A stretch of 64,000 nt of DNA. Source: Rugalucina vietnamica. Its lineage: Eukaryota > Mollusca > Bivalvia > Lucinida > Lucinidae. The notes under the pieces were generated by a model. It was not told where the DNA came from and ran no database searches. It saw only the letters and a program-made list of their open reading frames with translations. Where the stretch lies: positions 34,944,721-35,008,720 of the forward strand of contig OZ024874.1 in NCBI GenBank assembly GCA_964017185.1, given 5' to 3'. Position 1 is the stretch's first letter. Every line of letters begins with the position of its first letter. A program made the position numbers and the translations under genes. Below, piece after piece: positions 6,997-49,810 of this stretch.

Positions 6997-7048
6997 GCTG
7001 AACAGTGTTGGTGCCAGAACACAGCCTTGTTTGACCCCATTTGTTACT

Positions 7049-7672: not shown

Positions 7673-7677
7673 TCACT

Positions 7678-13845: not shown

Positions 13846-16800
13846 ACTGTTATAATGTTGACACTAACGGTTGTAACTGCAACGCTTAATTTTAACGTGT
13901 TGCCACTAACGCTTGCAACTGCAATGCTTAATGTTAACGTGTTGCCTTTAAAGGTTGCAACTGCAACGGTTAGTGCTTACTAACGTTTGCAACTGAAACG
14001 CTTAGCTTTAACGTGTTGCCACTAACGCTTAATGTTAACGTCTTGCCATTAAAGGCTGCAACTGTAACGGTTAGTGCTTACATGTTGACACTAACGTTTG
14101 CAACTGTTTTAACGGTTGCAAATGCAAAGCTTAGTGTTTACTGTTGCCATTTACGGTTTTAACTACAACGCTTAGTTTTAACGTGTTGACACGGTTTTAA
14201 CGGTTGCAAATGCAAAGCTTAGTCTTTACGTGTTGTCATTGACGGTTTTAACTGCAACGCTTAGTTTTAACATGTTGCCACGGTATTAACGGTTGCAAAT
14301 CCAATGCTTAGTGCTAACGTGTTGCAATTAACGGTTATAACTACAACGCTTAGTTTTAAAGTGTTGACTTGGTTTTAATGGTTGCAAATGCAAAGCTTAG
14401 TGTTTACGTGTTGTCATTAACGGTTTTAACTGCAACGCTTAGTTTTAACGTGTTGCCACGGTATTAACGGTTGCAAATCCAATGCTTAGTGCTAACGTGT
14501 TGCAATTAACGGTTATAACTACAACGCTTAGTTTTAACGTGTTGGCATGGTTTTAATCTTTGCAAATGCAAAGCTTAGTGTTTACGTGTTGTCATTAACG
14601 GTTTTAACTACAACGCTTAGTTTTAACGCATTGTAACCGCAATGCTTAGTGTTAACGTGTTGTCATTAACGGTTGCAACTGCAACGCTTAGTGTAAACAT
14701 GTTGACACTAACGGTTGCAACTGCAATGCTAAGTGTTAACATGTTGACATAAACGGTTGCAACGTGTTAACGTAATGAAATTAATGTAAGCAAATGCTAC
14801 ACTTATAATGTTGACACTAACGTTACGTAAGCAAATGCTACACTTATAATGTTGACACTAAAGGTTGTAACTGCAACGCTTAGTTTTAACGCATTGTAAC
14901 CGCAATGCTTAGTGTTAACGTGTTGTCATTAACGGTTGCAACTGCAACGCTTAGTTTTAACGTGTTGCCACTAACGCTTGCAACAGCAATGCTTAATGTT
15001 AACGTGTTGCCTTTACAGGTTGCAACTACAACGGTTAGTGCTTACATGTTGACACTAACGTTTGCAACTGCAACGCTTAGCTTTAACGTGTTGCCACTAA
15101 CCCTCCATGTTAACGTCTTGTCATTAAAGGTTGCAACTGTAACGGTTAGTGCTTACATGTTGACACTAACGTTTGCAACTGTTTTAACGGTTGCAAATGC
15201 AATGCTTAGTGTTTACGTGTTGCCATTAACGGTTTTAACTATAACGCTTAGTTTTAACGTGTTGACACGGTTTTAATGGTTGCAAATGTTGCTTAGTGTT
15301 TAAGTGTTGTCTGTTGTCATTAACGGTTTTAACTGCAACGCTTAGTTTTAACATGTTGCCACGGTATTGACGGTTGCAAATCCAATGCTTAGTGCTAACG
15401 TGTTGCAATTAACGGTTATAACTACAACGCTTAGTTTTAACGTGTTGACATGGTTTTAATGGTTGCAAATGCAAAGCTTAGTGTTTACGTGTTGTCATTA
15501 ACGGTTGCAACTGCAACGGTTAGTGTAAACATGTTGACACTAACGGTTGCCACTGCAATGCTTAAGTGTTGACATAAACGGTTGCAACGTGTTAACGTGT
15601 TGAAATTAACGTAAGCAAATGCTACACTTACTGTTATAATGTTGACACTAACGGTTTAGTTTTAACGTGTTGCCACTAACGCTTGCAACTGCAATGCTTA
15701 ATCTTAACGTGTTGCCTTTAAAGGTTGCAACTGCAACGGTTAGTGCTTACATGTTGACACTAACGTTTGCAACTGCAACGCTTAGCTTTAACGTGTTGCC
15801 ACGAACGCTTAATGTTAACGTCTTGCCATTAAAGGTTGCAAATGTAACGGTAAGTTCTTACATGTTGACACTAACGTTTGCAACTGTTTTAACGGTTGCA
15901 AATGCAAAGTTTAGTGTTTACGTGTTGCCATTAACGGTTTTAACTACAACGCTTAATTTTAACGTGTTGACACGGTTTTAACGGTTGCAAATGCAAAGCT
16001 TAGTGTTTACGTGTTGTCATTAACGGTTTTAACTGCAACGCTTAGTTTTAACGTGTTGCCACGGTATTAACGGTTGCAAATCCAATGCTTAGTGCTAAAG
16101 TGTTGCAATTAACGGTTATAACTACAACGCTTAGTTTTAACGTGTTGGCATGGTTTTAATCTTTGCAAATGCAAAGCTTAGTGTTTACGTGTTGTCATTA
16201 ACGGTTTTAACTACAGCGCTTAGTTTTAACGCATTGTAACCGCAATGCTTAGTGTTAACGTGTTGTCATTAACGGTTGCAACTGCAACGCTTAGTGTAAA
16301 CATGTTGACACTAACGGTTGCAACTTCAATGCTAAGTGTTAACATGTTGACATAAACGGTTGCAACGTGTTAACGTGTTGAAATTAATGTAAGCAAATGC
16401 TATACTTATAATGTTGACACTAACGTAACGTAAGAAAATGCTACACTTATAATGTTGACACTAAAGGTTGTAACTGCAACGCTTAGTTTTAACGCATTGT
16501 AACCGCAATGCTTAGTGTTAACGTGTTGTCATTAACGGTTGCAACTGCAACGCTTAGTTTTAACGTGTTGCCACTAACGCTTGCAACAGCAATGCTTAAT
16601 GTTAACGTGTTGCCTTTAAAGGTTGCAACTGCAACGGTTAGTGCTTACATGTTGACACTAACGTTTGCAACTGCAACGCTTAGCTTTAACGTGTTGCCAC
16701 TAACCCTCCATGTTAACGTCTTGTCATTAAAGGTTGCAACTGTAACGGTTAGTGCTTACATGTTGACACTAACGTTTGCAACTGTTTTAACGGTTGCAAA

Positions 16801-17089
16801 TGCAATGCTTAGTGTTTACATGTTGTCATTAACGGTTTTAACTATAACGCTTAGTTTTAACGTGTTGACACGGTTTTAATGGTTGCAAATGTTGCTTAGT
16901 GTTGTCTGTTGTCATTAACGGTTTTAACTGCAACGCTTAGTTTTAACATGTTGCCACGGTATTGACGGTTGCAAATCCAATGCTTAGTGCTAACGTGTTG
17001 CAATTAACGGTTATAACTACAACGCTTAGTCTTAACGTGTTGACATGGTTTTAACGGTTGCAACTGCAACGCTTAGTGTAAACAAGTTG

Positions 17090-18290
17090 ACACTAACGGT
17101 TGCCACTGCAATGCTTAAGTGTTGACATAAACGGTTGCAACGTGTTAACGTGTTGAAATTAACGTAAGCAAATGCTACACTCACTGTTATAATGTTGACA
17201 CTAACGGTTTAGTTTTAACAACTGCAATGCTTAATCTTAACGTGTTGCCTTTAAAGGTTGCAACTGCAACGGTTAGTGCTTACATGTTGACACTAACGTT
17301 TGCAACTGCAACGCTTAGCTTTAACGTGTTGCCACTAACCCTCCATGTTAACGTCTTGTCATTAAAGGTTGCAACTGTAACGGTTAGTGCTTACATGTTG
17401 ACACTAACGTTTGCAACTGTTTTAACGGTTGCAAATGCAATGCTTAGTGTTTACGTGTTGTCATTAACGGTTTTAACTATAACGCTTAGTTTTAACGTGT
17501 TGACACGGTTTTAATGGTTGCAAATGTTGCTTAGTGTTTACGTGTTGTCTGTTGTCATTAACGGTTTTAACTGCAACGCTTAGTTTTAACATGTTGCCAC
17601 GGTATTGACGGTTGCAAATCCAATGCTTAGTGCTAACGTGTTGCAATTAACGGTAACCGTTATAACTACAACGCTTAGTTTTAACGTGTTGACATGGTTT
17701 TAACGGTTGCAACTGCAACGCTTAGTGTAAACATGTTGACACTAACGGTTGCCACTGCAATGCTTAAGTGTTGACATAAACGGTTGCAACGTGTTAACGT
17801 GTTGAAATTAACGTAAGCAAATGCTACACTTACTGTTATAATGTTGACACTAACGGTTTAGTTTTAACAACTGCAATGCTTAATCTTAACGTGTTGCCTT
17901 TAAAGGTTGCAACTGCAACGGTTAGTGCTTACATGTTGACACTAACGTTTGCAACTGCAACGCTTAGCTTTAACGTGTTGCCACTAACCCTCCATGTTAA
18001 CGTCTTGTCATTAAAGGTTGCAACTGTAACGGTTAGTGCTTACATGTTGACACTAACGTTTGCAACTGTTTTAACGGTTGCAAATGCAATGCTTAGTGTT
18101 TACGTGTTGTCATTAACGGTTTTAACTATAACGCTTAGTTTTAACGTGTTGACACGGTTTTAATGGTTGCAAATGTTGCTTAGTGTTTACGTGTTGTCTG
18201 TTGTCATTAACGGTTTTAACTGCAACGCTTAGTTTTAACATGTTGCCACGGTATTGACGGTTGCAAATCCAATGCTTAGTGCTAACTTAG
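17090..18290. repeat. 649-bp higher-order repeat, two copies
   Basis: Segments around 17227-17640 and 17876-18290 match almost base for base at an offset of 649. Both share the CCCTCCATG variant monomer and the GTTTTAACAACTGCAATGC junction. The second copy ends in a fused junction (GCTAACTTAGCTTTAACG) near 18285. Confidence 0.75.
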
Positions 18291-19050
18291 CTTTAACGTG
18301 TTGCCACGAACGCTTAATGTTAACGTCTTGCCATTAAAGGTTGCAACTGTAACGGTAAGTTCTTACATGTTGACACTAACGTTTGCAACTGTTTTAACGG
18401 TTGCAAATGCAAAGTTTAGTGTTTACGTGTTGCCATTAACGGTTTTAACTACAACGCTTAGTTTTAACGTGTTGACACGGTTTTAACGGTTGCAAATGCA
18501 AAGCTTAGTGTTTACGTGTTGTCATTAACGGTTTTAACTGCAACGCTTAGTTAATAAATCCAATGCTTAGTGCTAACGTGTTGCAATTAACGGTTAGTTT
18601 TAACGTGTTGACATGGTTGCAAATCCAATGCTTAGTGCTAACGTGTTGTAATTAACGGTTATAACTACAACGCTTAGTTTTAACGTGTTGACATGGTTTT
18701 AATGGTTGCAAATGCAAAGCTTAGTGTTTACGTGTTGTCATTAACGGTTTTAATTGCAACGCTTAGTTTTACCGTGTTGCCACGGTATTAACAAATGCAA
18801 AGCTTAGTGTTTACGTGTTGTCATTAACGGTTTTAACTACAACGCTTAGTTTTAACGCATTGTAACCGCAATGCTTAGTGTTAACGTGTTGTCATTAACG
18901 GTTGCAACTGCAACGCTTAGTGTAAACATGTTGACACTAACGGTTGCAACTGCAATGCTAAGTGTTAACATGTTGACATAAACGGTTGCAACGTGTTAAC
19001 GTGCTGAAATTAAAGTAAGCAAATGCTACACTTACTGTTATAATGTTGAC

Positions 19051-19098
19051 AGTTAGTGTCAACCGTTGCAGTTAAAACCGTTGCAGTTACAACCGTTA
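19051..19098 (-). repeat. Inverted satellite patch
   Basis: AGTTAGTGTCAACCGTTGCA... to ...ACAACCGTTA is satellite sequence in reverse orientation inside an otherwise uniformly oriented array. It is followed at once by forward GGTTGTAACTGCAACG, which could form a short hairpin. Confidence 0.75.
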
Positions 19099-19592
19099 GG
19101 GTTGTAACTGCAACGTTTAGTTTTAACGTGTTGTCACTAACGCTTGCAACTGCAATGCTTAATGTTAACGTGTTGCCTTTAAAGGTTGCAACTGCAATGG
19201 TTAGTGCTTACATGTTGACACTAACGTTTGCAACTGTAACGCTTAGTGTTAACATGTTGGCACTAACGGTTGCAACTGCAATGCTTAGTGTTAACATGTT
19301 GACAAACGGTTGCAACGTGTTAACGTCTTGAAATTAACGTAAGCAAATTCTACACTTAGTGTTATAATGTTGACACTAACGGTTGTAACTGCAACGCTTA
19401 GCTTTAACGTGTTGCTACTATAGCTTGCAACTACAATGCTTAATGATAACGTGTTGCCATTAAAGGTTGCAATTGTAACGGTTAGTGCTTACATGTTGAC
19501 ACTAACGTTTGCAACTGTTTTAACAGTTGCAAATGCAAAGCTTAGTGTTTACGTGTTGCCATTAGCAGTTATAACTGCAACGCTTAGTTATA

Positions 19593-26694: not shown

Positions 26695-26700
26695 GTGCGT
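26695..26700. other. Target-site duplication (left), GTGCGT
   Basis: GTGCGT directly precedes the 17.4-kb palindromic element and is repeated directly after it at 44141-44146. Confidence 0.8.
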
Positions 26701-26780
26701 TGTAGCAACGATAAGTGTCCATCAACGACTTCTGTTCACCATGAACAAAAGTCGTTGCGGCCGCAACGACTTCTGTCCAC
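26701..26780 (+). repeat. Terminal inverted repeat, left
   Basis: Pairs with 44061-44140. It contains the word CAACGACTTCTGTTCACC and the palindrome GTCGTTGCGGCCGCAACGAC; these GTCGTTG/CAACGAC words recur throughout the B satellite. Confidence 0.9.
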
Positions 26781-26909
26781 TAGACAGTAATCGTTGATTT
26801 TTCAACCGTTTCTGTCCATTGTAGACAGAAGTCGTTGCTGTGGTAGATATGATCTGCAGTGTCAACGATAACTGTCCATTTCTGAAAAATCCAGAAACTT
26901 GAGTAAGAT
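26781..26909. other. Left subterminal block
   Basis: Further GACAGAAGTCGTTG and CAACGATAACTGTCCATT words at irregular spacing, then a direct transition into the A satellite. Confidence 0.6.
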
Positions 26910-29900
26910 GCAGTGATTTTGCCTTATATCTTGACACGCAATTAGTATATTTTCATACTTCTTTCAGATTATGAGTATGTATGACATGACCTTTGACCCC
27001 AATAAACTTATAGGTCACTGTGACCTAATTTCACGTTTCAGTGATTTTGCCTTATATCTTGACACTCAATAAGTATATGTTCATACTTCTTTCAGATTAT
27101 GAGTGAGTATGACCAGAGCTTTGACCCCCAATATACTTATAGGTCACTGTGACCTAATTTCACGGTTCAGTGATTTTGCCTTATATCTTGACACTCATTT
27201 AGTATATTTCCATACTTATTTCAGATAATGAGTGAGTATGACCAACCAGAGCTTTGACCCCCAATATACTTATAGGTCACTGTGACCTAATTTCACGGTT
27301 CAGTGATTTTGCCTTATATCTTGACACTGAATTAGTATATTTTCATACTTCTTTCAGATTATGAGTGAGTATGACCTTACCTTTGACCCCAATAAACTTA
27401 TAGGTCACCGTGGCCTAATTTCACGGTTCAGTGATTTTGCTTTATATCTTGACACTGAATTAGTATATTTTCATACTTCTTTCAGATTATGAGTGAGTAT
27501 GACCTTACCTTTGACCCAAATAAACTTATAGGTCACTGTGACCTATTTTCACGGTTCAGTGATTTTGCCTTATATCTTGACACTCAATCAGTATATTTTT
27601 ATACTTCTTTCAGATTATGAGTGAGTATGGCCAGAGCTTTGACCCCTAATATACTTACAGGTCACTGTGACCTAATCTCACGGTTCAGTGATTTTGCCTT
27701 ATATCTTGACACTCAATTAGTATATTTTCATACTTCTTTTAGATTATGAGTATGTATGACCTGAACTTTGACCCCAATAAACTTATAGGTCACTGTGACC
27801 TAATTTCATGGTTCAGTGATTTTGGCTTATATCTTGACACTCAATTAGTATATTTTCATACTTCTTTCAGATTATTAGTATGTATGACCAGACCTTTGAC
27901 ACCCAATACACTTATAGGTCACTGTGACCTAATTTCACGGTTCAGCGATTTTGCCTTATATCTTGACACTGAATTAGTATATTTTCATACTTCTTTCAGA
28001 TTATGAGTGAGTATGACCTTAGCTTTGACCCCAATAAACTTATAGGTCACTGTGACCTAATTTCACGGTTCAGTGATTTTGCCTTATATCTTGACACTCA
28101 ATTAGTATATTTTTATACTTCTTTCAGATTATGAGTGAGTATGACCAGAGCTTTGACCCCCAATATACTTATAGGTCACTGTGACCTACTTTCACGGTTC
28201 AGTGATTTTGCCTTATATCTTGACACTGAATTAGTATATTTTCATACTTCTTTCAGATTATGAGTGAGTATGACCTTAGCTTTGACCCCAATAAACTTAT
28301 AGGTCACTGTGACCTAATTTCACGGTTCAGTGATTTTGCCTTATATCTTGACACTCAATTAGTATATTTTTATACTTCTTTCAGATTATGAGTGAGTATG
28401 ACCAGAGCTTTGACCCCCAATATACTTATAGGTCACTGTGACCTAATTTCACGGTTCAGTGATTTTGCCTTATATCTTGACACTCAATAAGTATATTTTC
28501 ATTATGATACTTCTTTCAGATTATGAGTGAGTATGACCTGACCTTTGACCCCAATTAACTTATAGGTCACTGTGACCTAATTTTACGGTTCAGTGATTTT
28601 GCCTTATATTTTGACTCTCAATTAGTATATTTTCATACTTCTTTCAGATTATGAGTGAGTATTAGCAGAGCTTTGACCCCAATAGACTTATAGGTCACTG
28701 TAACCTAATGTCACGGTTCAGTAATTTTACCTTATGTCTTGACACTCAATTAGTATATTTTCGTACTTCTTTCAGATTATGAGTTAGTATGACTAGACCT
28801 TTGACCCCATTCTACTTATAGGTCAGTGTGACCTAATTTCATGTTTCAGTGATTCTGCCTTACATCTTGACACTCAATTATGATACTTTCATGCTTCCTT
28901 CAGATTATGAGTGAGTATAAACAGACCTTTGACCACAATATACTTATAGGTCACTGTGACCTAATTTCATGGTTCACTGATTTTGCCTTATATCTTTGGT
29001 TTATGAACATAATTCTTTCACACTATGTTTGTGTATGACAAGACCTTTGACCCTAAAGTAGTCCTAGGTCATTGTGACCTGATTACATGGTTCAGTGATT
29101 TTGCATTTTATCTCGGTTTTCTTTTGGTATATGAACATATTTCTTTCACATTATGTTTGCGTATGACAAGACCTTTGAACCTTAAGTATTTCTGGGTCAT
29201 TGTAACCTAATTTCATGCTTCAGTGACTTTACCTTATATCTTGACACTCGGTATATTTTCATACGTCTTTATTATTATGAGTTAGTATGATAAGACCTTT
29301 GACCCTAAAGTACTTATAGGTCAGTGTGAGCTTATTTCACGGTTCAGTGATTTTGCCTTGTATCTCGGCACTTAGTTGGTGTATTAACATACTTGATGTA
29401 CAATATGATTGAGACGTTTAAACCTTCAGTAGTTATAAGTTATAGTTAACTGTCATGGTTGAGTGATTTTGTTCTGTATAACATCAAGGCAAAAAGATGT
29501 ATGAGCATATTGCTTTGGGTTACAGGTCCAGTTTGGCCCTATGCTTGACAAAGGTCAAAGCAGTTGATATTCAGATTATGAGTGAGTATGACCAGACATT
29601 TGGCCCTAAATTACTTATAGGTCACTGTGACCTTTTTTCACGGTTCAGTGATTTTGCCTTGAATCTCGGCACTCAACTGGTATATGATAGAGTACAAGTA
29701 GGCAAAGATCAGGAAAAAAGGCAATCGGAAAAAGATTCCCACTCCAAAAACCGAGGTGGGAAAAAACTAAATTAATAATCAGGTACTTATACGATGAAAA
29801 CATCGTAAGCCAAATGTGCAGCTATACTTCTTTCCTTTCACTATATGTTGGCGTATGACCAGACCTTTGACCTACAAGTAATCCTACGTACCTGTGACTT

Positions 29901-30187
29901 AATTTCATGATTCAGTGATTTTGCCTTATATCACATCACTCAATTAGTATATGGGCATACATCTTTCACAATATGAGTAAGTATGACCCGACATTTGACA
30001 ACAAACTAGTCTTACGTCCCTGTGACCTAATTTCATGGTTAAGTGATTTTGTCTTATATCTTAACACGCTATCAGTAAATTTTCAGACTTCTTTCAGATT
30101 ATGAATAAGTGCTACGAAACCTTTGAACAAAAAGTATGTAAAGGTCACTATAACCTTATTTCATGTTTCAGTAATTCTGATTTTTAT
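26910..30187 (+). repeat. A satellite, left arm (about 128-bp unit, about 25 units)
   Basis: Each unit runs GTGATTTTGCCTTATATCTTG, ACTCAATTAGTATATTTTCA, TACTTCTTTCAGATTATGAG, GAGTATGACC, CTTTGACCCC, TACTTATAGGTCACTGTGAC, CTAATTTCACGGTTCA. Units from 26930 to about 28560 are very alike; those from 28700 to 30187 are increasingly diverged, with an unrelated 130-bp patch near 29690-29820. AGGTCACTGTGACCT, a perfect palindrome, is intact in about 14 units. Short frames such as FDPNKLIGHCDLISRFSDFA are read-through of the repeat. Confidence 0.95.
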
Positions 30188-30530
30188 TTTATACATTACA
30201 GTTAAAACCAGTGTATATCAAAACTTGATAAAATTGGTATTTTCATTGATATGAAATTTCACTGATATCAAATCTCACTGAATTCAAAAGTTACTAGTGA
30301 CTGGTATCAGCCTATATCTTCACTGTAGAGTTTGGATTACTTCTGACGTTTCCATTTACTTGACGTCATTAAATGTGTTTCACTTCAGAAATTCAATCGC
30401 CTATAACTCCGTAAATTATTAACGAAAGCATAAAGTGTGGGTTCTCATTTTCTTCGATAGAAAGTGAGGAACAATGTGGTACCAAAATTTTTTGTGTTTT
30501 CAACAATTTTTGGTTTTTGCATTTTCACCG
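30188..30530 (+). repeat. Dispersed repeat, copy A
   Basis: From TTTATACATTACAGTTAAAACC to GCATTTTCACCG; it matches 49250-49602 in the opposite orientation with moderate divergence. Shared features are the GATATCA-rich start, a TGACGTCA word and CCTATAACTCCG. It interrupts the junction between A and B satellites in the left arm only. Confidence 0.8.
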
Positions 30531-31039
30531 CCTGCCTTGTCTTCTTCTTTGGGTTTAATTCCCTCCTCTATTAGGAGAACCGCCAACGTTGATTGACGTA
30601 GTCGTTGATGTGTTGTCGGGTGTGTTGCCTTAAGGAACTCGTTCAAAAAACCATTAGTTTGATAGCCTGTGTACATGTGCTAGGATTCCCCATAATCATA
30701 TTTACAGTTTGTAGCATTAAAAGTTCATAGCACATAAGAGGAGGTTATTAGTACTATATACACTATATAGGTTCGTCTATTTAGTGTTTCTAACAGGGCA
30801 CTGCGTCTAACATGCAGGGCATAACATAGACTTCTCGCCACTGAGAACAGCTGATCGAGGGTTGACTCATCTTCTGTCCCACACCAGGACAGCAAGTTGT
30901 ACCATATCTTCCCCTTCCCAGGCCCGGGTCGTCGTGTCCATCGTTGACTCCAGCAGTAGCACAACTTGTCGTACAAATGGTTCGCGAACACTCTGTAGTT
31001 CACCACATCACACCTTGTGATTCGGAAAAGGCCCGTGTG
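30531..31039. other. Unique part of the left-arm insertion
   Basis: Not satellite. A minus-strand frame of 93 codons (31006-30725; YDKLCYCWSQRW...) shows no recognised domain. The right arm passes directly from B to A satellite at about 40262, so the whole 30188-31039 block looks like an insertion into the left arm. Confidence 0.5.
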
Positions 31040-34000
31040 TTGTAATCAGGAACTTAAATTGTAAAAGTTTAACGGATTTCATCTATCACAAACTGGTATC
31101 GTTGACAATGTACGACTTCTGTCTGCTGTCAACAGTTATCGTTGAAAACTCTACCGGTTCTGTTCATCATGTACAAAAAACATTAACTTTGTCTCATATT
31201 AGTTCACAAAGAACACGATTACTTGTTTTAAGATAGATTCGTTTATCTAGAACTTTAATAATTATAAGATTGACTGATTTCTATGATTTCATCTGCAGTG
31301 AACAGAAGTCGTTGACAACATAACGACTTCTGTCTGCTATGAACAGTTGTCGTTGAAAGCTCAACCGGTTCTGTCTATCATGTACAAAAACCTTTGAACT
31401 TGTCTCATACTAGTTCCGAAAGCCACGATCAGTTGTTTTAAGAAAGATTTTTGTATCAGGAACTTTAATTGTTATACGATTGATGGATTTATACGATTTC
31501 ATCTGTCGTGAACAGAAGTCGTTGACAACATAACGACTTCTGTCTGATGTGAACACTTGTCGTTGAAAGCTCAACCGGTTCTGTCCATCATGGTCACAAA
31601 ACTTTGAACTTGTCTCATACTAGTTCCGAAATCCACGATTTGTTGTTTTGAGATAGATTTGTGTATCAGGAACTTTAATTGATATTAGATTGACTGACTT
31701 ATATGATTTCATCTTTCGTGAACAGAAGTCGTTCACAACGTAACGACTTCTGTCTGCTGTGAACAGTTGTCGTTGAAAACTCAACTGGTTCTGTCCATCA
31801 TGTACAAAAACTTTAAATTTGTCTCATGCTTGTGCAGAAAGAACACGATTACTTGGTTTAAGATATATTCGTGCATCAAGAATTTTCATCGTTATAAGAT
31901 TGACTGATTTCTATGATTTCATCTGTCGTGAACAGAAGTCGTTGACAACGTAACGACTTCTGTCTGCTGGGAAAAGTTGTCGTTGAAAACTCAACCGGTT
32001 CCGTCCATCATGTGCAAAATCGTTTGATCTTGTCTCATACTAGTTCCTAAAGTCACGATTAGTTGTTTTAAGAAATATTTTTGTATCTGGAAATTTAATT
32101 GTTATACGATTGACGGATTTATATGATTTCATCTGTCGTGAACAGAAGTCGTTGACAACGTAACGACTTCTGTCTGCTGTGAACAGTTGTCGTTGAAAAC
32201 TCAACCGGTTCTGTCCATCATGAACACAAATCTTTAAACATGTCTCATACTAGTTCAGAAAGCCAGGATTTGTTGTTTTTGGATACATTTGTGTATCAGG
32301 AACTTTAATTGTTATTAGATTGACTTACTTATGTGATTTCATCTTTCGTGAACAGAAGTCGTTGACAACGTAACGACTTCTGTCTGCTGTGAACTGTTGT
32401 CGTTGATAACTCAACCGGTTCTGTCCATCATGTACACAAACCTTTGAACTTGTCTCATACTAGTTCAGAAAGCCACGATTAGATGTTTTAGGATAGATTT
32501 GTGTATCAGGAACTTTAATTGATATTAGATTGACTGACTTATATGATCTCATCTTTCGTGAACAGAAGCCGTTGACAACGTAACGACTCCTGTCTGCTGT
32601 GAACAGTTGTCGTTGAAAACTCAACCGGTTCTGTCCATCATGTACAAAAAACCTAAAATTTGTCTCATGCTTGTTCAGAAAGAACACGATTACTTGGTTT
32701 AAGATAATTTCGTGTATCAAGAATTTTCATCGTTATAAGATTGACTGATTTCTATTATTTCATCTGTCGTGAACAGAAGTCATTGACAACGTAACGACTT
32801 CTGTCTGCTGTGAACAGTTGCCGTTGAAAACTCAACTGGTTCTGTCCATCATTTACAAAAACCTTTGAACTTGTCTCTTACTAATTCCGAAAGGCACGAT
32901 TAGTTGTTATAAGATAGATTTATGTATCAGGAACTTAAATTGTTATACGATTGAAGGATTTATATGATTTTTGTATCAGGATTTTTAATTGTTATTAGAT
33001 TGGCTGACTTATATGATTTCACCTGTCGTGAACAGAAGTCGTTGACAACGTAACGACTTCTGTCTGTTGTGAATAGTTGTCGTTGAAAACTCAACCGGTT
33101 CTGTCCATCATGTACAAAAACCTTTGAACTTGTCTCATACTAGGTTAGAAAGCCACGATTAGTTGTTTTAAGATAGATTTGTGTATCAGAAACTTTAAAT
33201 GATATTAGATTGACTTACTTATGTGATTTCATCTTTCGTGAACAGAAGTCGTTGACAACGTAACGACTTCTGTCTGCTGTGAACAGTTGTCGTTGAAAAC
33301 TCAACCGGTTCTGTCCATCATGAACACAAATCTTTAAACATGTCTCATACTAGTTCAGAAAGCCACGATTTGTTGTTTTTGGATACATTTGTGTATCAGG
33401 AACTTTAATTGTTATTAGATTGACTTACTTAAGTGATTTCATCTTTCGTGAACAGAAGTCGTTGACAAGGTAACGACTTCTGTCTGCTGTGAACTGTTGT
33501 CGTTGATAACTCAACCGGTTCTGTCCATCATGTACACAAACCTTTGAACTTGTCTCATACTAGTTCAGAAAGCCAAGATTAGATGTTTTAGGATAGATTT
33601 GTGTATCAGGAACTTTAATTGATATTAGATTGACTGACTTATATGATCTCATCTTTCGTGAACAGAAGTCGTTGACAACGTAACGACTTCTGTCTGCTGT
33701 GAACAGTTGTCGTTGAAAACTCAACCGGTTCTGTCCATCATGTACAAAAAACTTATAATTTGTCTCATGCTTGTTCAGAAAGAACACGATTACTTGGTTT
33801 AAGATATTTTCGTGTATCAAGAATTTTCATCGTTATAAGATTCACTGATTTCTATGATTTCATCTGTCGTGAACAGAAGTCGTTGACAACGTAACGACTT
33901 CTGTCTGCTGTGAACAGTTGCCGTTGAAAACTCAACTGGTTCTGTCCATCATTAACAAAAACCTTTGAACTTGTCTCTTACTAATTCCGAAAGGCACGAT

Positions 34001-36652
34001 TAGTTGTTATAAGATAGATTTATGTATCAGGAACTTAAATTGTTATACGATTGACAGATTTATATGATTTTTGTATCAGGAAGTTTAATTGTTATTAGAT
34101 TGGCTGACTTATATGATTTCATCTGTCGTGAACAGAAGTCGTTGACAACGTAACGACTTCTGTCTGTTGTGAATAGTTGTCGTTGAAAACTCAACCGGTT
34201 CTGTCCATCATGTACAAAAACCTTTGAACTTGTCTCATACTAGGTTAGAAAGCCACGATTAGTTGTTTTAAGATAGATTTGTGTATCAGAAACTTTAAAT
34301 GATATTAGATTGACTTACTTATGTGATTTCATCTTTCGTGAACAGAAGTCGTTGACAACGTAACGACTTCTGTCTGCTGTGAACGGTTGTCGTTGATAAC
34401 TCAACCGGTTCTGTCCATCATGTACACAAACCTTTGAACTTGTCTCATACTAGGTTAGAAAGCCACGATTAGTTGTTTTAAGATAGATTTGTGTATCAGA
34501 AACTTTAAATGATATTAGATTGACTTACTTATATGATTTCATCTTTCGTGAACAGAAGTCGTTGACAACGTAACGACTTCTGTCTGCTGTGAACAGTTGT
34601 CGTTGAAAACTCAACCGGTTCTGTCCATCATTTACAAAAAACTTTGAACATGTCTCTTACTAGTTCCGAAAGCCACGATTAGTTTTTATAAGATAGATTT
34701 ATGTATCAGGAACTTAAATTGCTATACAATTGACGGATTTATATGATTTCATCTGTCGTGAACAGAACTCGTTGACAACGTAACGACTTTTGTCTGCTGT
34801 GAATAGTTGTCGTTGAAAACTCAACCGGTTTTGTCCACCATGTACAAAACCTTTGAACTTGATTCATACTAGTTCAGAAAGCCACGATTTGTTGTTTTAG
34901 ATAGATTTGTGTATCAGGAACTTTAATTGTTCAAAGATTGACTGACTAATGTGATTTCATCTGAAGTGAACAGAAGTCGTTGACAACGTAACGACTTCTG
35001 TCTACTGTGAACAGTTGTCGTTGAAAACTCAACCGATTCTGTCCATCATGAACACAAAGCTTTGAAAATGTCTCATACTAGTTCAGAAATCAACGATTTG
35101 TTGTTTTTAGATAGATTTGTGTATCAGGAACTTTAATTGATATTAGATTGACTGACTTATATGATTTCATCTTTCGTGAACAGAAGTCGTTGACAACGTA
35201 ACGACTTCTGTCTGCTGTGAACAGTTGTCGTTGAAAACTCAACTGGTTCTGTCCATCATGTACAAAAATCTTTAAATTTGTCTCATGCTTGTTCAGAAAG
35301 AACACGATTACTTGGTTTAAGATATATTCGTGTATCAAGAATTTTCATATTTATGAGATTGACTGATTTCTTTGATTTCATCTGTCGTGAACAGAAGTCG
35401 TTGACAACGTAACGACTTCTGTCTGCTGTGAACAGTTGTCGTTGAAAACTCAACCGGTTCGGTCCATCATTTACAAAAAAAACCTTTGAACTTGTCTCTT
35501 ACTAGTTCCGAAAGCCACGATTAGTTGGTATAAGATAGATTTATGTATCAGGATCTTAAATTATTATACGATTGACTGACTTATTTGATTTCATCTGTCG
35601 TGAACAGAAGTCGTTGACAACGTAACGACTTCTGCCTGCTGTGAACAGTTGTCGTTGAAAACTCAACCGGTTCTGTCCATCATGAACACAAATCTTTGAA
35701 CATGTCTCATACTAGTTCAGAAAGCCACAATTTGTTGTTTATAGATAGGATTGTGTATCAGAAACTTTAATTGTTATTAGATTACTTACTTATGTGATTT
35801 CATCTGTCGTGAACAGAAGTCGTTGACAACGTAACGACTTCTGTCTGCTGTGAACAGTTGTCGTTGAAAACTCAACCGGTTCTGTCCATCATGTACACAA
35901 ACCTTTGAACTTGTCTCATACTAGGTTAGAAAGCCACGATTAGTTGTTTTAAGATAGATTTGTGTATCAGAAACTTTAAATGATATTAGATTGACTTACT
36001 TATATGATTTCATCTTTCGTGAACAGAAGTCGTTGACAACGTAACGACTTCTGTCTGCTGTGAACAGTTGTCGTTGAAAACTCATTACAACCGGTTCTGT
36101 CCATCATTTACAAAAACCTTTGAACATGCCTCTTACTAGTTCCGAAAGCCACAATTTGTTTTTATAAGATAGATTTATGTATCAGGAACTTAAATTGTTA
36201 TACGATTGACGGATTTATATGATTTCATCTGTCGTGAACAGAACTCGTTTACAACGTAACGACTTTTGTCTGCTGTGAATAGTTGTCGTTGAAAACTCAA
36301 CCAGTTTTGTCCACCATGTACAAAAACCTTTGAACTTGTCTCATACTAGTTCAGAAAGCCACGATTTGTTGTTTTACATAGATTTGTGTATCAGGAACTT
36401 TAATTGTTCAAAGATTGACTGACTAATGTGATTTCATCTGAAGTGAACAGAAGTCGTTGACAACGTAACGACTTCTGTCTACTGTGAACAGATGTCGTTG
36501 AAAACTCAACCGGTTCTGTCCATCATGTATACAAACCTTTGAACTTGTCTCATATTAGTTCAGAAAGCCGTGATTAGTTGTTTTAAGATAGATTTGTGTA
36601 TCAGGAACTCTAATTGATATTAGATTGACTGACTTATATGATTTCATCTTTC
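31040..36652 (+). repeat. B satellite, left arm (210-bp unit, about 26 units)
   Basis: Units start about every 210 bp; AACAGAAGTCGTTGACAACG recurs at 31931, 32141, 32351 and 32561. Each holds a dyad, CAGAAGTCGTT and AACGACTTCTG separated by eight bases, then GTGAACAGTTGTCGTTGAAA, CTCAACCGGTTCTGTCCATC and a more variable 100-bp part (AGATAGATTTGTGTATCAGG). Some neighbouring multi-unit blocks are near identical, for example about 32340-33000 versus 33420-34090. Frames of 82-86 residues are repeat artefacts. Confidence 0.95.
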
Positions 36653-36670
36653 GCCAATCAAAAATAACAG
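36640..36670. other. Orientation switch at the palindrome centre
   Basis: The last forward B unit stops after TGATTTCATCTTTCG and the sequence turns into reverse-oriented B (AACAGTTAAAGTTCCTGATA) within about ten bases. There is essentially no spacer loop. Confidence 0.85.
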
Positions 36671-39600
36671 TTAAAGTTCCTGATACAAAAATCTATCTTA
36701 AAACAACTAGTCGTGGCTTTCTAAACTGATATGAGACAAGTTCAACGGTTTTTAGTACATGATGGACAGAACCGGTTGAGTTTTCAACAACAACTGTTCA
36801 CAGCAGACAGAAGTCGTTACGTTGTCAACGACTTCTGTTCACGAAAGATGAAATCACATAAGTAAGTCAATCTAATAACAATTAAAGTTCCTGATACACA
36901 AATCTATCTAAAAAACAAATCATGGCTTTCTGAACTAGTATGAGACATGTTGTTCAAAGTTTTGTGTTCATGATGGACAGAACCGGTTGAGTTTTCAACG
37001 ACAACTGTTCACAGCAGACAGAAGTCGTTACGTTGTCAACGACTTCTGTTCACGAAAGATGAAATCACATTAGTCAGAAAATCTTTTAACAATTAAAGTT
37101 CCTGATACACAAATCTATCTAAAAACAACAAATCGTGGCTTTCCGAACTGGTATGAGACAACTTCAACGGTCTTTAGTACATGATTGACAGAACCGGTTG
37201 AGTTTTCAACGACAACTGTTCACAGCAGACAGAAGTCGTTACGTTGTCAACGAATTCTGTTCAAACGTAACGACTTCTGTTCACAACAGATGAAATCACA
37301 TAAGTAAGTCAATCTAATAACAATTAAACTTGCTGATACAAAAATCTATCTTAAAACAACTAGTCGTGGCTTTCTTATTTGGTATGAGACAAGTTCAACG
37401 GTTTTTAGTACATGATGGACAGAACCTGTTGAGTTTTCAACGACAACTGTTCACAGCAGACAGAAGTCGTTACGTTGTCAACGACTTCTGTTCACGAATG
37501 ATGAAATCATATAAGTCAGAAAATCTTTTAACAATTAAAGTTCCTGATACACAAATCTATCTAAAAACAACAAATCGTGGCTTTTAGAACTAGTATGAGA
37601 CAAGTTCAAAGGTTTTTGTACATGATGGACAGAACCGGTTGAGTTTTCAATGACAACTGTTCACAGCAGGCAGAAGTCGTTACGTTGTCAACGACTTCTG
37701 TTCACGACAGTCGAAATCACATTAGTCAGTTAATCTTTTAACAACTTAAGTTCCTGATACACAAATCTATCTTAAAACAACTATTCGTGACTTTCTTAAC
37801 TGGTATGAGACAAGTTTTACGGGTTTTAGTACATGATGGACAGAACCTGTTGAGTTTTCAACGACAACTGTTCACAGCAGACAGAAGTCGTTACGTTGTC
37901 AACGACGTCTGTTCACGAAAGATGAAATCACATTAGTCAGAAAATCTTTTAACAATTAAAGTTCCTGATACACAAATCTAACTAAAAACAACAAATCGTG
38001 GCTTTTTGAACTAGTATGAGACAAGTTCAAAGGTTTTTGTACATGATGGACAGAACCGGTTGAGTTTTCAACGACAACTGTTCACAGCAGACAGAAGTCG
38101 TTACATTGTCAACGACTTCTGTTCACGAAAGTTGAAATCACATTAGTCAGAAAATCTTTCAACAACTTCAGTTCCTGATACACAAATCTTTCTAAAACAA
38201 CAAATCGTGGCTTTATGAACTAGTATGAGACATCTTCAAAGGTTTTTCGTACATGATGGACAGAACCGGTTGAGTTTTCAACGACAACTATTCACAGCAG
38301 ACAGAAGTCTTAACGTTGTCAACGACTTCTGTTCACGACAGATGAAATCATATATATAAGTCAGCCAATCTAATATCAGTTAAAGTTCCTGATACAAAAA
38401 TCTGTCATAAAACAACTAGTCGTGGCTTTCTAAACTGGTATGAGACAAGTTCAACGGTTTTTAGTACATGATGGACAGAACCGGTTGAGTTTTCAACGGC
38501 AACTGTTCACAGCAGACAGAAGTCGTTACGTTGTCAACGACTTCTATTCACGACAGATGAAATCACATAAATAAGTCAATCGAATAACAATTAAAGTTCC
38601 TGATACACAAATCTATCTAAAAAACAACGAATCGTGGGTTTCTGAACTAGTATGAGGCATGTTCCAAGTTTTGTGTTCATGATGGACAGAACCGGTTGAG
38701 TTTTCAACGACAACTGTTCACAGCAGACAGAAGTCGTAACGTTGTCAACGACTTCTGTTCACAACAGATGAAATCATAGAAATCAGCCAACCTAATATCA
38801 ATTAAAGTTCCTGATACACAAATCTATCTTAAAACAACTAATCGTGGCTTTCTGAACTAGTATGAGACAAGTTCAAAGGTTTGTGTACATGATGGATAGA
38901 ACCGGTTGAGTTTTCAACGACAATTATAACGATGAAAACTCTTCATACACGAATATATCTTAATCCAAGTAATCGTGTTCTTTCTGAACAAGCATGAGAC
39001 AACTTTAAAGTTTTTTGTACATGGTGGACAGAACCAGATGAGTTTTCAACGACAACTATTCACAGTAGACAGAAGTCGTTACGTTGTCAACGACTTCTGT
39101 TCACGACAGATGAAATCAAAGAAATCAGTCAATATAATATCAATTAAAGTTCCTGATACACAAATCTATCTTAAAACAACTAATCGTGGCTTTCTGAACT
39201 AGTAAGAGACAAGTTCAAAGGTTTGTGTACATGATGGACAGAACCGGTTGAGTTTTCAACGACAATTATAACGATGAAAATTCTTCATACACGAATATAT
39301 CTTAAACCAAGTAATCGTGTTCTTTTTGAACAAGCATGAGACAAATTTAAAGTTTTTTGTACATGATGGACAGAACCAGTTGAGTTTTCAACGACAACTG
39401 TTCACAGCAGACAGAAGTCGTTACGTTGTCAACGACTTCTGTTCACGACAGATGAAATCATAGAAATCAGTCAATCTTATAACGATGAAAATTCTTGATA
39501 CACGAATATATCTTAAACCAAGTAATCATGTTCTTTCTGAACAAGCATGAGACAAATTTAAAGATTTTTGTACATGATGGACAGGACAGAACCAGTTGAG

Positions 39601-40262
39601 TTTTCAACGACAACTGTTCACAGCAGACAGAAGTCGTTACGTTGTCAACGACTTCTGTTCACGAACGATGAAATCATATAAGTCAGTCAATCTAATATCA
39701 ATTTAAGTTCCTGATACACAAATCTATCTAAAAACAACAAATCGTGGCTTTCTGAACTAGTATGAGATATGTTCAAAGATTTGTGTTCATTATGGACAGA
39801 ACCGGTTGAGTTTTCAAGGACAACTGTTCACAGCAGACAGAAGTCGTTACGCTGTCAACGACTTCTGTTCACGACAGATGAAATCACATTAGTCAGTCAA
39901 TCTTTTAACAATAAAGGTTCCTGATACAGAAATATATCTTAAAACAATGAATCGTGGCGTTCTGAAATGGTATGAGGCAAGTTCAAAGGCTTTTGTACAT
40001 GATGGACAGAACCAGTTGAGGCTTCAACGACAACTGTTCACAGTAGACAGAAGTCGTTACGTTTTCAACGAGTTCTGTTCACGACAGATAAGATCATATA
40101 AATCAGTCAATCGTAACACAATAAGAGTTCCTGTTAAAAAATCTATCTTATAACTATTAATTTTGGCGTTCGGAACTAGTATGAGACAAGTTCAAATGTT
40201 TTTGTACATGATGGACAGAACCAGTTGAGTTTTCAACGACAACTGTTCATAGCAGTCGTTAC
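36655..40262 (-). repeat. B satellite, right arm (about 17 units)
   Basis: Reverse orientation of the left-arm B repeat, with words GATGGACAGAACCGGTTGAG, TTTTCAACGACAACTGTTCA and CAGCAGACAGAAGTCGTTAC. It is shorter than the left arm by about ten units. The junction to A is direct (CAGTCGTTACGTTGATCACAGTGACC). Confidence 0.95.
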
Positions 40263-40785
40263 GTTGATCACAGTGACCTATACATGTTAGTATATTTGGG
40301 TCAAAAGTCTGGTCATTCTCACTCACAATCTGAAAGAAGTATGAAACAATACCAATTGAGTGCGGAGATATTAGGCAAAAGCACTGAATCGTGAAATAAG
40401 GTCACAGTGACCTATAAGTATATTGGGGTCATAGGTTTGGTCATACTCACTCATCATCTGATGGAAGTATGAAAATATAGCAATTGAGTGTCTAGATATA
40501 AGGAAAAATCACTGAACCGTGAAATTAGGTCACAGTGATCAATAAGTATATTGGGGTCATACTCACTCATAATCTGAAGGTAATATGAAAATATATCAAT
40601 TGAGTGTCAAGATATTGGGCAAAATCACTGAACCGTGAAATTAGGTCACATTGACCTATAAATATATTTTGGGTCAAAGGTCTGGTCATTCTTACTTATA
40701 ATCTGAAAGAAGTAAGAAAATATACTAATTGTGTGTCAAGATGTAAAATCACTGTACCACGGAAAGTAGGTCAACGCAATCTTAC
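40263..40785 (-). repeat. A satellite, right arm, inner part
   Basis: About four reverse-oriented A units (GGTCACAGTGACCTATAAGT, GGCAAAATCACTGAACCGTG) next to the B block. The last one degrades at CCACGGAAAGTAGGTCAACG. Confidence 0.9.
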
Positions 40786-41640
40786 CGTCATGACACACAA
40801 GCCATTGTCACAATGTTGAAAGATGAATGACCAACCATCTTAGTAAGTTCTTTCTATTTAGATATAAATCGCCAAAAACATTGTAGCGAGTTCTAGATTT
40901 TTACCCCAGAGGTCCGATGTCATGGAACCTAAATTGTATGAATTGTAAGATATCTTTCTTCGTACAAGTTACACAGCAGTACATTCATTTTTACAGTGTT
41001 CTAGTTTTAACCTCTAGTTCCATCCCCCAGGCATGGACCCAGGGATCTAATGCCATGCAATGAAACTCAACCCTACAAGGCACCTATGGTTCAAGTATGA
41101 AAGCCCACTGATGAAAGATTTTAAAGATATAGACTTCTAGAATACTATATCACAGAAAAGCCATCAATAATGGTGTGTTAGATTTTTAAACCTCCAGCCC
41201 CCACCCCCCTCTCGGGACTGGACCTAGGGGCTCGATGCCATGGAATGAAAGCTGACCCTACAGGGTATCAATAGTCTAAGTATCAATGCTTTCTGATGAG
41301 TTGTTGTCAAGATTCTAGAAACCTTAAACGCAAGTGTAACGCGCACGCGCACGGGAACGTGGACGACCGCGGTGAATACCATAGCTTTATGCCCTTTGTG
41401 TAGTCGAGCTAAAAACAATATTTAGGCAGTTCTAGATTTCGACCTCTAGCCCCGCCCCTGACTCCGACCCAGTGGTCCGATGTCAGGGAACCTAATGTGT
41501 ATGAACTATGAATGCTTTATGATAAGTTGTTGTCAAGATATGAACTCTTTGTAAAAAAAAAAAAAAAAAGAGCTGTCGCAGGACAGCGCGCTTGACTGCT
41601 TCTGACCTTTGGCAAATATACCTGACCTGTAACCCAAAGC
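40786..41640. repeat. C repeat: diverged units inside the right arm
   Basis: Four diverged copies of a GTTCTAGATTTTxACCxCxAG word begin near 40890, 40998, 41177 and 41429. Each is followed by a GACCCAGxGGTCCGATGTCA-like stretch. A poly(A) run of about 18 lies at 41553. No counterpart is seen in the left arm; no gene recognised. Confidence 0.65.
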
Positions 41641-43862
41641 ATTATGCTCATACATCTCTTTGCCTCGATTCAACAAGGCAAAATCACTCAACCATGAATG
41701 TTAACTATAACTACCTAAGATTTAAAGGTCTCACTCATATTGTGAAAGAAGAGTGTTCATATACCAAATGCGTGCCAAGATACAAGGCAAACTCACTGAA
41801 TTGTGAAATAAGGTCACAATGACATAAAAGTTCTTCAGGGTCAAAGGTCTAGTCATACTTTCTCATAATGTAAAAGAAATATGATCATATACCTATTGAG
41901 TGTTGAGATATGATGCAAAATCAATGAACCATGAAATTAGGTCATAGTGACATATAAGTATGTTTGGAATAAAGGTCTGGTCAAACTCATTCATAATCAG
42001 AAAGAAGTATGAAAGGATACCAACTGAGTGTCAAGATATAACGCAAAGTCACTGAACCATGAAATTAGGTCACAGTGGCCCAGGAATACTTAACGGTCAA
42101 GGGTCTTGTCATATGCAAACATATCATGAAAGAAGTATGTTCATATACCAATTGAGTGCCGAGATATAAGGGAAAATCACTGAACCGTAAAATTAGGTCA
42201 TAATGACCTATGACTACTTTAGGGTCAAAGGTCTTGTCATACCCAAACAAAGTGTGAAAGAAGTTGGTCATGAACCAATTGAGTGTCAAGATATAATGGA
42301 AAATCACTGAACCGTGAAATTAGGTCACAGTGACCTATAAGTATATTGGGTTCAAAGGCCTGGTCATACTTACTCATAATCTGAAAGAAGTAAGAAAATA
42401 TATTAATTGAGTGTCAAGATATAAGGCAAAATCACTGAACCATGAAATTAGGTCACAGTGACCTAGGAATACTTCAGGGTCAAAGGTCTTGTCATACGCA
42501 AACATATCCTGAAAACAATATGTTCATATACCAATTGAGTGCCGAGGTACAAGGGAAAATCACTGAACCGTGAAATTAGGTCATAATGACCTAGGACTTC
42601 TTAAGGGTCAAAGTCTTGTCATACGCAAACATATCCTGAAAACAATATGTTCATATACCAATTGAGTGCCGAGATACAAGGGAAAATCACTGAACCGTGA
42701 AATTAGGTCATAATGACCTAGGACTACTTAAGGGTCAAAGTCTTGTCATACGCAAACATATCATGAAAACAGTATGTTCATAAACCACCTGAGTGCCGAG
42801 ATATAAGGCAAAATCACTGAACCGTGAAATTAGGTCATAATGACCTATGACTACTGAAGGGTCAAAGGTCTTGTCATACGCAAACATAGTGTGAAAGAAG
42901 TTTGTTCATATACCAGTTGAGTGCCGAGATATAAGGCAAAATCACTGATGCGTGAAATAAGGTCACAGTGACCTATAAGTATATTGGGGTCAAAGGTCTG
43001 GGCATACACACTCATAATCTGAAAAAGTATGAAAATATACTGATTGAGTGTCAAGATATAAGGCAAAATCACTGAACCGTGAAATTAGGTCACAGTGACC
43101 TATAAGTATATTGGGTTCAAAGGCCTGGTCATACGCAAACATAGTGTGAAAGAAGTTTGTTCGTATACGAGTTGAGTGCCGAGATATAAGGCAAAATCAC
43201 TGAATCGTGAAATAAGGTCACAGTGACCTATAAGTATATTGGGTTCAAAGGCTTGGTCATACGCAAATATAGTGTGAAAGAAGTTTGTTCATATACCAGT
43301 TGAGTGCCGAGATATAAGGCAAAATCACTGAACCGTGAAATAAGGTCACAGTGACCTGTAAGTATATTGGGGTCAAAGGTCTGGTCATACACACTCATAA
43401 TCTAAAAAAAGTATGAAAATATACTGATTGACTGTCAAGATATAAGGCAAAATCACTGAACCGTGAAATTAGGTCACAGTGACCTATAAGTATATTGGGT
43501 TCAAAGGCCTGGTCATACGCAAACATAGTGTGAAAGAAGTTTGTTCATAATTTATACCAGTTGAGTGCCGAGATATAAGGCAAAATCACTGAACCGTGAA
43601 ATAAGGTCACAGTGACCTATAAGTATATTGGGGTCAAAGGTCTGGTCAAACACACTCATAATCTGAAAAAAGTATGAAAATATACTGATTGAGTGTCAAG
43701 ATATAAGGCAAAATCACTGAACCGTGAAATTAGGTCACAGTGACCTATAAGTATATTGGGGTCAAAGATCTGGTCATACTTACTCATAATCTGAAAGAAG
43801 TAAGAAAATATATTAATTGAGTGTCAAGATATAAGGCAAAATCACTGAACCATGGAAAGTAG
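41641..43862 (-). repeat. A satellite, right arm, outer part
   Basis: About seventeen reverse-oriented A units, diverged at the start and homogeneous from about 42290 to 43850. AGGTCACAGTGACCT is intact in about nine. Several units instead carry AGGTCATAATGACCT, which keeps both half-sites. Confidence 0.95.
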
Positions 43863-44060
43863 GTCAACCGATCCTTAGCGTCAAAACACACAAGTCAGTC
43901 CATCTGTGAATGTTGTTTGCTAAATGGGTGTCAAGGTATGTACTTACAGAACGGTTTTAACAGTAACCAGCATTTTTCGCAGTGCTCTATGAAAATGAAC
44001 AGTAGTCGTTGAAAATAATTTTTATATCTACATGCTCAACGACTATTGTCCATTTAGCTA
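43863..44060. other. Right subterminal block
   Basis: Non-satellite sequence followed by AACAGTAGTCGTTGAAAATA and TCAACGACTATTGTCC words leading into the terminal repeat. Confidence 0.6.
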
Positions 44061-44140
44061 GTGGACAGAAGTCGTTGCGGCCGCAACGACTATTGTCCAT
44101 GGTGAACAGAAGTCGTTGATGGACACTTATCGTTGCTACA
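44061..44140 (-). repeat. Terminal inverted repeat, right
   Basis: Mirror of 26701-26780, ending CGTTGCTACA; GTGCGT follows at 44141-44146. Confidence 0.9.
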
Positions 44141-44146
44141 GTGCGT

Positions 44147-48850: not shown

Positions 48851-48990
<140 letters not shown>

Positions 48991-49249
48991 CATGGCGTGC
49001 ATATTATATTATGTAGTACAATGTTATATATGTTGTATTATATTGCTACAACATGTCGAGATTATGTCGAGAGTATATCGAGAAGCATGGCGGCTTCGAG
49101 TACAATCCACTTCTTCAATCGTAAATGCATGAAAAGGCATGTTTGATCGGCCACTCAATATTAGCATTAACTAAAATGAAACAAGGCCGTATATAACATG
49201 TAGCACATGTTATAGTTTTTCTTGTTATTTTATACAATGCACAGGCATT

Positions 49250-49602
49250 CGGTGAAAATGCAAAAACAAAAAAATTTTGAAAACACGAATAATTTTGGTA
49301 CCACATTGTTCCTTATGTTCTAACTAAGAAAATGAATACCCACACTTTATGTTTTCGTTCATAAATAACGGAGTTATAGGCGTTTGAATTTCTGAAGTGA
49401 GGCACATTTAATGACGTCAAGTAAATGGAAACGTCAGAAGTAATCCAAAAAATCTGACGTCATTACAGTGACGATATAGGCTGATATCAGTCACTAGTGA
49501 CTTTTGATATCAGTGAGATTTGATATCAGTGAAATTTCATATCAATGAAAATACCAATTTTATCAAGTTTTGATATACATTGGGTTTCACTGTAAAGTAT
49601 AA
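49250..49602 (-). repeat. Dispersed repeat, copy B
   Basis: Reverse-oriented relative of 30188-30530, from CGGTGAAAATGC to TTTCACTGTAAAGTATA. It contains two TGACGTCA words and CAGTCACTAGTGAC, a palindromic word. Confidence 0.8.
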
Positions 49603-49810
49603 AATAAATATTCTAACACACCTCGCCTATATAGCCAATGGTAAAAAACGTGTTATATTGTGCAACAATTTCACTGGGCGAATAAGCGTGACGTTACTTT
49701 GCGGCATTTGTGACGTCAGCTATCCCACAAAGCAGCGTTAGACGGTGAAACGTCGTTTTAGCGCACAACAAACGTAATAAGTGTGTGTGAATACCAGCAT
49801 TACAGTCAAA
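49603..49810. other. Spacer with TGACGT words
   Basis: No gene; GTGACGTTACT and GTGACGTCAGC occur near 49690 and 49710. Confidence 0.4.

Follow-up and report, generated by a model that had tools for sequence, protein, structure and literature searches.

A 64,000-nucleotide stretch of the bivalve Rugalucina vietnamica (hereafter the window; C6:34,944,721-35,008,720, contig OZ024874.1 of the 1.09-Gb assembly GCA_964017185.1, 47 contigs) contains at positions 26,701 to 44,140 a 17,440-bp block in which two satellites are arranged in mirrored order. It is a single copy of a family of giant inverted-repeat DNA transposons, apparently non-coding, that is spread through the genome. A sequence-only reading of the window had described near-identical inverted ends with GTGCGT on both sides, and this is confirmed: positions 26701-26783 and the reverse complement of 44140-44058 are 97.6% identical across 83 bp, and the hexamer flanks the element at both sides. 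The coordinates also bear out the 128-bp A satellite and the 210-bp B satellite in mirror order, with arms of 9.95 and 7.49 kb that meet at about position 36,653. The mirror plan proposed for the element stands for the order of end block, A and B, whereas the arms are inexact mirrors, with modules Y and Z in the left arm only and W in the right arm only. The parts of the element are as follows.

26695..26700, no strand: 6-bp target-site duplication GTGCGT, left
26701..26912, plus strand: left end block (L end, some 210 bp), with the terminal inverted repeat as its first 83 bp; copies of motif CAACGAnnnnTGTCC in alternating orientation
26913..29394 (array also given from 26911), plus strand: A satellite array of the left arm, 128-bp units; palindrome AGGTCACTGTGACCT in the consensus unit
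29395..30176, plus strand: diverged A units and a short segment X, which in some other copies also adjoins insertions of reverse-transcriptase elements
30183..30537, plus strand: Y, a dispersed repeat of the left arm, present in 7 of 8 large copies
30538..31074, plus strand: Z, about 538 bp, the window copy having an extra insert; 34-91 bp in those other copies for which it was listed
31075..36652 (repeat matches 31099-36653), plus strand: B satellite array of the left arm, 210-bp units; terminal motif four times in the consensus unit
36653..40267 (repeat matches 36663-40255), minus strand: B satellite array of the right arm, inverted
40268..40773 (repeat matches 40289-40746), minus strand: short inner A block, inverted
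40774..41624, plus strand: W, about 850 bp, a right-arm module, whole or partial in 6 of 8 large copies
41730..43866 (repeat matches 41736-43866), minus strand: A satellite array of the right arm, inverted
43867..44140, minus strand: right end block (R end, 274 bp), with the terminal inverted repeat as its outer 83 bp
44141..44146, no strand: 6-bp target-site duplication GTGCGT, right

A second copy of Y lies outside the element on the minus strand (49243-49608, about 89% identical).

Copies in the genome and their target sites

Family copies have the termini TGT...ACA and the end sequence TGTAGCAACG. The exact 20-base end occurs at 294 places in the genome (145 forward, 149 reverse), against none for a control, and has no match in IMG/VR. 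Tabulated were 291 of the 294 ends, through four pattern searches with 11 flanking bases. Pairs required two exact 20-base ends, and the pairing rule, which takes first the partners within 100 kb that share at least 5 bp and then the nearest within 60 kb, favours duplication-bearing pairs. The sequence-only reading held that the block would not be a single element if other copies of its ends lacked 6-bp duplications. Of the 120 inward-facing pairs, 102 carry a duplication: a perfect 6-bp one in 90, and one of 5 bp (10) or 7 bp (2) in another 12, a result that upholds the single-element reading. A 6-bp match is found in 75% of pairs compared with 1.1% when partners are shuffled, and a rule without the preference (next reverse end within 60 kb; 236 ends) gives 81 pairs, of which 71 have a duplication of 5-7 bp, 64 of them of 6 bp.

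The target shows a strong central preference. At the two central positions of the 90 six-base sites, G and C stand at 0.93 each, and the other 14 positions, four within the duplication and ten outside it, carry at most 0.06 bits each. The form NNGCNN accounts for 80 of the 90 six-base duplications, and GC is found in none of the ten five-base ones (e.g. ACCCA, AGGGT, AAACC). Some copies have no duplication: C2:65880141, which is one of eight large copies studied, as well as an 83-bp locus with both ends (L038) and an 854-bp locus (C5:66020677).

The 102 duplication-bearing copies range from 78 to 60,442 bp (median 18,867) and total 2.03 Mb. Nearly all of them (97) are within 10.9-33 kb, with four longer and one shorter; the lack of copies between 78 bp and 10.9 kb holds solely for pairs with two exact 20-base ends. 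Of the four longest, two carry a nested element (C4:2021147 and C9:28460533) and two are known from their ends only.

One end pair lies inside the R end of another copy (C4:2021256-2042527; L030, L039). The interrupted end reads ...GTTGAGCAT/GTAGAT..., with GAGCAT on both sides of the insert and the R-end sequence otherwise intact, and the outer copy has its own duplication, AAGCCA. The sequence of the empty site is known because other R ends show it uninterrupted, and the nested end pair is thus empty-site proof of insertion. Matching duplications, the same plan at other loci and this end pair inside another copy's end support the reading of the window block as one element.

Nine loci have collapsed to 30-78 bp between perfect duplications (L029, L057, L062, L069, L071, L074, L079, L085 and L104), and seven of the first eight retain roughly 27-55 bp from one end but only 3-12 bp from the other. 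The first eight come from a search of 63 loci that gave 10 hits, and L104 from the variant-end pattern below; the search needed one intact 20-bp end, and smaller scars are thus unseen. Two of the ten hits, L095 and L096, are false, their apparent duplication being part of the terminal motif of a complete arm. The remnants suggest cut-and-paste excision followed by incomplete repair; deletion without a transposase is the alternative. A recheck for altered ends at 49 of the 63 loci found a 250-bp copy with both end blocks, one end altered and the perfect duplication TGGGGT (L047), and two loci (L046, L084) with both end blocks within about 0.7 kb and the inner part of an inverted L end some 0.5 kb inside. 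Short copies with internal deletions are thus present where one end is altered. At L036 (C11:2176290-2176590) a full L end and a truncated one stand back to back, with the 2-bp spacer TT.

Architecture of the large copies and the terminal motif

Eight large copies, the window copy included, were compared, with unit counts taking in units that cover at least 92% of the monomer. All eight have end blocks, outer mirrored A arrays and inner B arrays. Because the plan is shared by eight of eight copies, and the ends number 294 against none for the control, neither the mirrored A/B plan nor the 20-mer end is due to chance. Within the plan there is considerable variation. B units are found in both orientations in seven copies, one of which (C1:44122933) has a single full inverted B unit, and in one orientation only at C5:75303839. 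Most copies have one L and one R end; at C3:26708381 both ends are of the L type and both arms carry Y. The number of units per arm ranges from 0 to 64 for B and from 8 to 22 for A.

In pairwise comparisons of copies the L end averages 98.8% identity, the R end 98.9%, Y 97.6% and W 96.6% (3 copies), and with such high identity the expansion of the family looks recent. For 158 of 235 A units the best match is a unit from another copy, in an arm of the same type, so the A arrays descend from a common ancestor, and homogenization between the two arms of one copy was rejected; B units show no such pattern. The junction at the B/B centre differs in most copies and is shared in opposite orientation by one pair, as judged by eye, which suggests that the inner arms can flip. 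A 21-mer from the B core is found at 4,001 places in the genome, and the first 100 listed are all inside four paired copies on C1, with none between them (by eye). The palindrome AGGTCACTGTGACCT of the A monomer, which we take to be a perfect match to the palindromic oestrogen response element, has 31 exact copies in the window element and none in the 46.6 kb of flank; other parts of the monomer are better conserved.

The 20-bp end consists of TGTAG and CAACGATAAGTGTCC, and by eye the end blocks contain variants of this 15-mer that face alternately in the two directions. A 16-mer form of the motif, at three or fewer mismatches, occurs at 14.5 per kb in the B arrays and 18-33 per kb in the end blocks, and is absent from the window's A arrays, W, the left middle segment and the 46.6 kb of flank. 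With a looser form there are six forward matches and one reverse match in the right flank and none in the left, the six forward ones being scattered or in an unrelated repeat. The motif block is also the best conserved part of the B satellite. In 389 B units, motif columns differ from the consensus by 3.1% versus 8.7% elsewhere, with the same direction in all eight copies, and when CpG columns are left out the values are 2.8% and 8.9%. The 79-bp motif block is the least diverged of 210 rotations of the unit, and 72 representative B units of less than 93% identity give 4.0% for the motif block versus 10.3%. From this we infer that the motif block may be a protein-binding array, most simply one for the transposase.

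Search for an autonomous partner, and other elements

A partner element with the same ends, predicted in the sequence-only reading, did not turn up among the ends examined. These were 47 of the 51 unpaired ends and 13 ends from listed pairs, each followed inward for about 600 bp, and no transposase was seen within that distance of any of them. The unpaired ends outside this batch are C11:2176440 (in L036), C5:62386450 (in L031), C8:20170901 and C12:50627443. By eye, 21 of the 47 run into A arrays, 7 are remnants flanked by duplications and 11 have been truncated or otherwise rearranged; another six are R ends that lead into other, partly W-like sequence (L045, L046, L051, L053, L063, L066), and two are R ends with broken A arrays (L075, L084). 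A further 5 kb of one such right arm (L063 together with L103) contains other repeats, W and A units, and no open reading frame above 125 amino acids. The variant-end pattern TGTAGCAACGAVNNNTGTYC is found at six places, against none for a control. One is a 62-bp remnant with the duplication ACGCAC (L104), one a mini-copy, about 100 bp long, with a single mismatch between its six-base flanks (L106), and others are an R-type end (L105), an L-type end (L107) and about 22 bp of end followed by other sequence (L108). No transposase was seen in the sequence read at these five; the sixth place is C3:40655899. The only reading frame of the window element that was run against Pfam, of 106 amino acids, has no match.

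We regard the coding inserts in three copies as later passengers rather than as drivers. The 10.2-kb insert at C3:30891684 has a 1,255-amino-acid frame that reads, by eye, like a reverse transcriptase of a long interspersed nuclear element (LINE), and the inserts at C3:26708381 and C5:59410878 have a different reverse transcriptase (by eye), a 622-amino-acid frame without a Pfam match. Reverse-transcriptase-like frames of up to 622 amino acids, inserted in B arrays, are adjoined by matches to the Rfam family SECIS_1 (gathering score 35): 39.0 bits at L010 7242-7309, 37.4 bits at L017 1177-1244 and, below the gathering score, 31.7 bits at L014 4409-4480. Selenocysteine-bearing Penelope-like (Naiad) elements exist; a literature search confirmed nothing on this point.

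The 60-kb copy at C9:28460533-28520974 (duplication TAGCTA) has a 38.7-kb insert in its inverted B array, at about 14,477-53,224 of the joined stretch C9:28460433-28521074 (L042, L032-L035, L040, L041). Its inverted ends, about 270 bp long, are 83.8% identical, and TATTA stands on both sides of the insert. The outer parts also match each other in inverted orientation at further places, and on either side of the middle lies a 40-bp satellite, in opposite orientations. The ends hold a tRNA-like stretch (by eye), no reading frame above 141 amino acids was printed, and the insert was seen once. By its organization it is a second giant inverted-repeat element with a mirrored satellite, i.e. one of the same design.

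Elsewhere in the window, 1238-5804 and 13856-19517 are large arrays of a satellite built on 42 bp (TTAACGGTTGCAACTGCAACGCTTAGTGTTAACATGTTGACA), which also have units of longer period, and these flank a broken LINE-like reverse transcriptase at 5881-8751. Positions 48855-48988 are a perfect (AT)67 dinucleotide run.

Known elements and rival explanations

By its sequence organization the family belongs to the foldback (FB-type) transposons. Long inverted repeats make up most of the element, the arms have variable tandem repeats, and 102 of 120 pairs have duplications; the arms would be capable of forming hairpins. FB, TU and Galileo likewise have inverted ends filled with tandem repeats, the TU ends being of two domains. 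They differ in duplication length (about 9, 8 and 7 bp, respectively) and are far smaller, and Galileo is in the P superfamily. Foldbacks are known in D. melanogaster and sea urchin, and the nearest described case is Tetris of Drosophila virilis, as far as the portions of its description used here go (PMC4079207). Tetris is also non-coding, with long inverted ends and tandem repeats of about 220 bp, has a short relative that resembles a miniature inverted-repeat transposable element (DAIBAM), and no autonomous copy of it was found (PMC4079207). Tetris ends reach 1.7 kb, with three structurally complete copies and duplications of 8-10 bp (PMC4079207), whereas the present family has arms of several kb, two ordered satellites, 102 duplication-bearing copies, 6-bp NNGCNN duplications and the terminal motif inside a satellite. 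No comparable giant two-satellite element was found in the open-licence papers searched. Relative to known foldbacks, the family differs in scale, in the number of duplication-bearing copies, in its GC-centred 6-bp target and in the conserved terminal motif within a satellite.

Duplication length does not decide the superfamily. The duplications described in part of PMC10045372 are 6 bp for Polinton, usually 6 bp for IS3EU/GingerRoot, 4 bp for Ginger1 and 4-10 bp for the IS256/MuDR group. Duplications of 8-10 bp have been linked to Mutator, where Tetris is assigned (PMC4079207, in part); those of the present family are 5-7 bp with a mode of 6, a length that alone does not exclude Mutator. Dada elements have similar duplications, of 6-7 bp and often with GCG, and Dada-U6 and Dada-U1 insert in small RNA genes and are without terminal inverted repeats in the sections of PMC3706591 drawn on here. 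Against membership in Dada stand the 83-bp inverted ends and the lack of any Rfam RNA match in the window at the gathering score.

The explanation that we favour in full, at a probability of about 0.77, is that these giant foldback DNA transposons form a young, high-copy, non-autonomous family, moved by a transposase supplied in trans and with a role for the B arrays. A cut-and-paste DDE-type transposase would bind CAACGAnnnnTGTCC at the ends, and the B satellite would be an internal amplification of the putative binding-site block, perhaps kept as an aid to mobility, e.g. by loading transposase or by uniting the ends. The inverted arms and tandem arrays would grow, shrink and flip via between-arm recombination. 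Several points weigh against this. No transposase or autonomous copy was found, with most copy interiors unread, 18 of the 120 pairs have no duplication and 51 of the 291 ends are unpaired. The short copies L047, L046 and L084 indicate that long arrays are not always needed for presence, unless they were deleted after insertion. As for the B satellite, a difference at least as large is obtained with 4 of 209 circular shifts of the motif mask, and divergence is just as low in the linkers of the motif block (2.9%), which makes the whole block of four motifs the constrained unit. Conservation of the block could also come from gene conversion with the ends rather than from selection, and this is the main alternative.

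That the B motif is conserved for a reason other than transposition, be it replication initiation, chromatin or conversion from the end blocks, seems to us rather unlikely. It is in keeping with the linkers being as conserved as the motifs and with sequence conservation alone being shown, and is at odds with the presence of the same motif at the termini and its absence, at three or fewer mismatches, from the window's A arrays and flanks. A more far-reaching version of the transposon explanation makes the satellites working parts: the binding block would have turned into a 210-bp satellite, and large mirrored arrays of it would raise mobility, which would account for a length of at least 11 kb in nearly all copies whose two ends are intact; the design would have arisen more than once in this genome, possibly with an undescribed transposase superfamily. 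The existence of short copies with altered ends lowers its odds, and we regard it as doubtful.

As to the source of the transposase, the TG...CA ends and 6-bp duplication point first to the integrase-like group, IS3EU/GingerRoot or Polinton-like. Mobilization by a transposase of the IS3EU/GingerRoot group is a tentative suggestion, less likely than not. GingerRoot also has 6-bp duplications, and its termini, mostly TA..TA, are occasionally TG..CA; those of complete IS3EU families are always TA..TA, in the part of the source used (PMC10045372). Autonomous families of the group encode a transposase (PMC10045372). In the present family none of that type was located at the ends and in the copies read. 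An origin as non-autonomous Polinton/Maverick derivatives is improbable. Polintons are similar in total length to the 11-33 kb seen here. They share the 6-bp duplication (PMC10045372, in part). Against the assignment, Polinton termini begin with AG. The reading-frame lists of the copies read, searched by eye and with no Polinton profile run, hold nothing Polinton-like and only inserted reverse transcriptases; a Polinton remnant is moreover not expected to take the form of two mirrored satellites. Finally, the block might be thought an immobile local inverted duplication of satellites or an assembly artefact. Palindromic, satellite-rich arms are hard to assemble, and L037 (C14:50346087-50349044) is a 2.76-kb palindrome that includes the flanks of an element end and is either a real inverted duplication or an artefact. 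Matching duplications around 102 copies at separate loci, together with a nested insertion, refute this for the family, and for the explanation as a whole we leave it a negligible chance. The flank at L037 recurs at C14:50398456.

The presence of the element's own terminal motif in the best-conserved block of its B satellite makes the association of foldbacks with satellites testable. As some 100 dispersed inverted repeats of kb scale, the copies are likely to be hotspots of inversion, breakage and mis-assembly. The family is a clear case of satellite DNA that travels and spreads as transposon cargo, on a scale of 11-33 kb, and its copies take up at least 2.0 Mb of this one genome.

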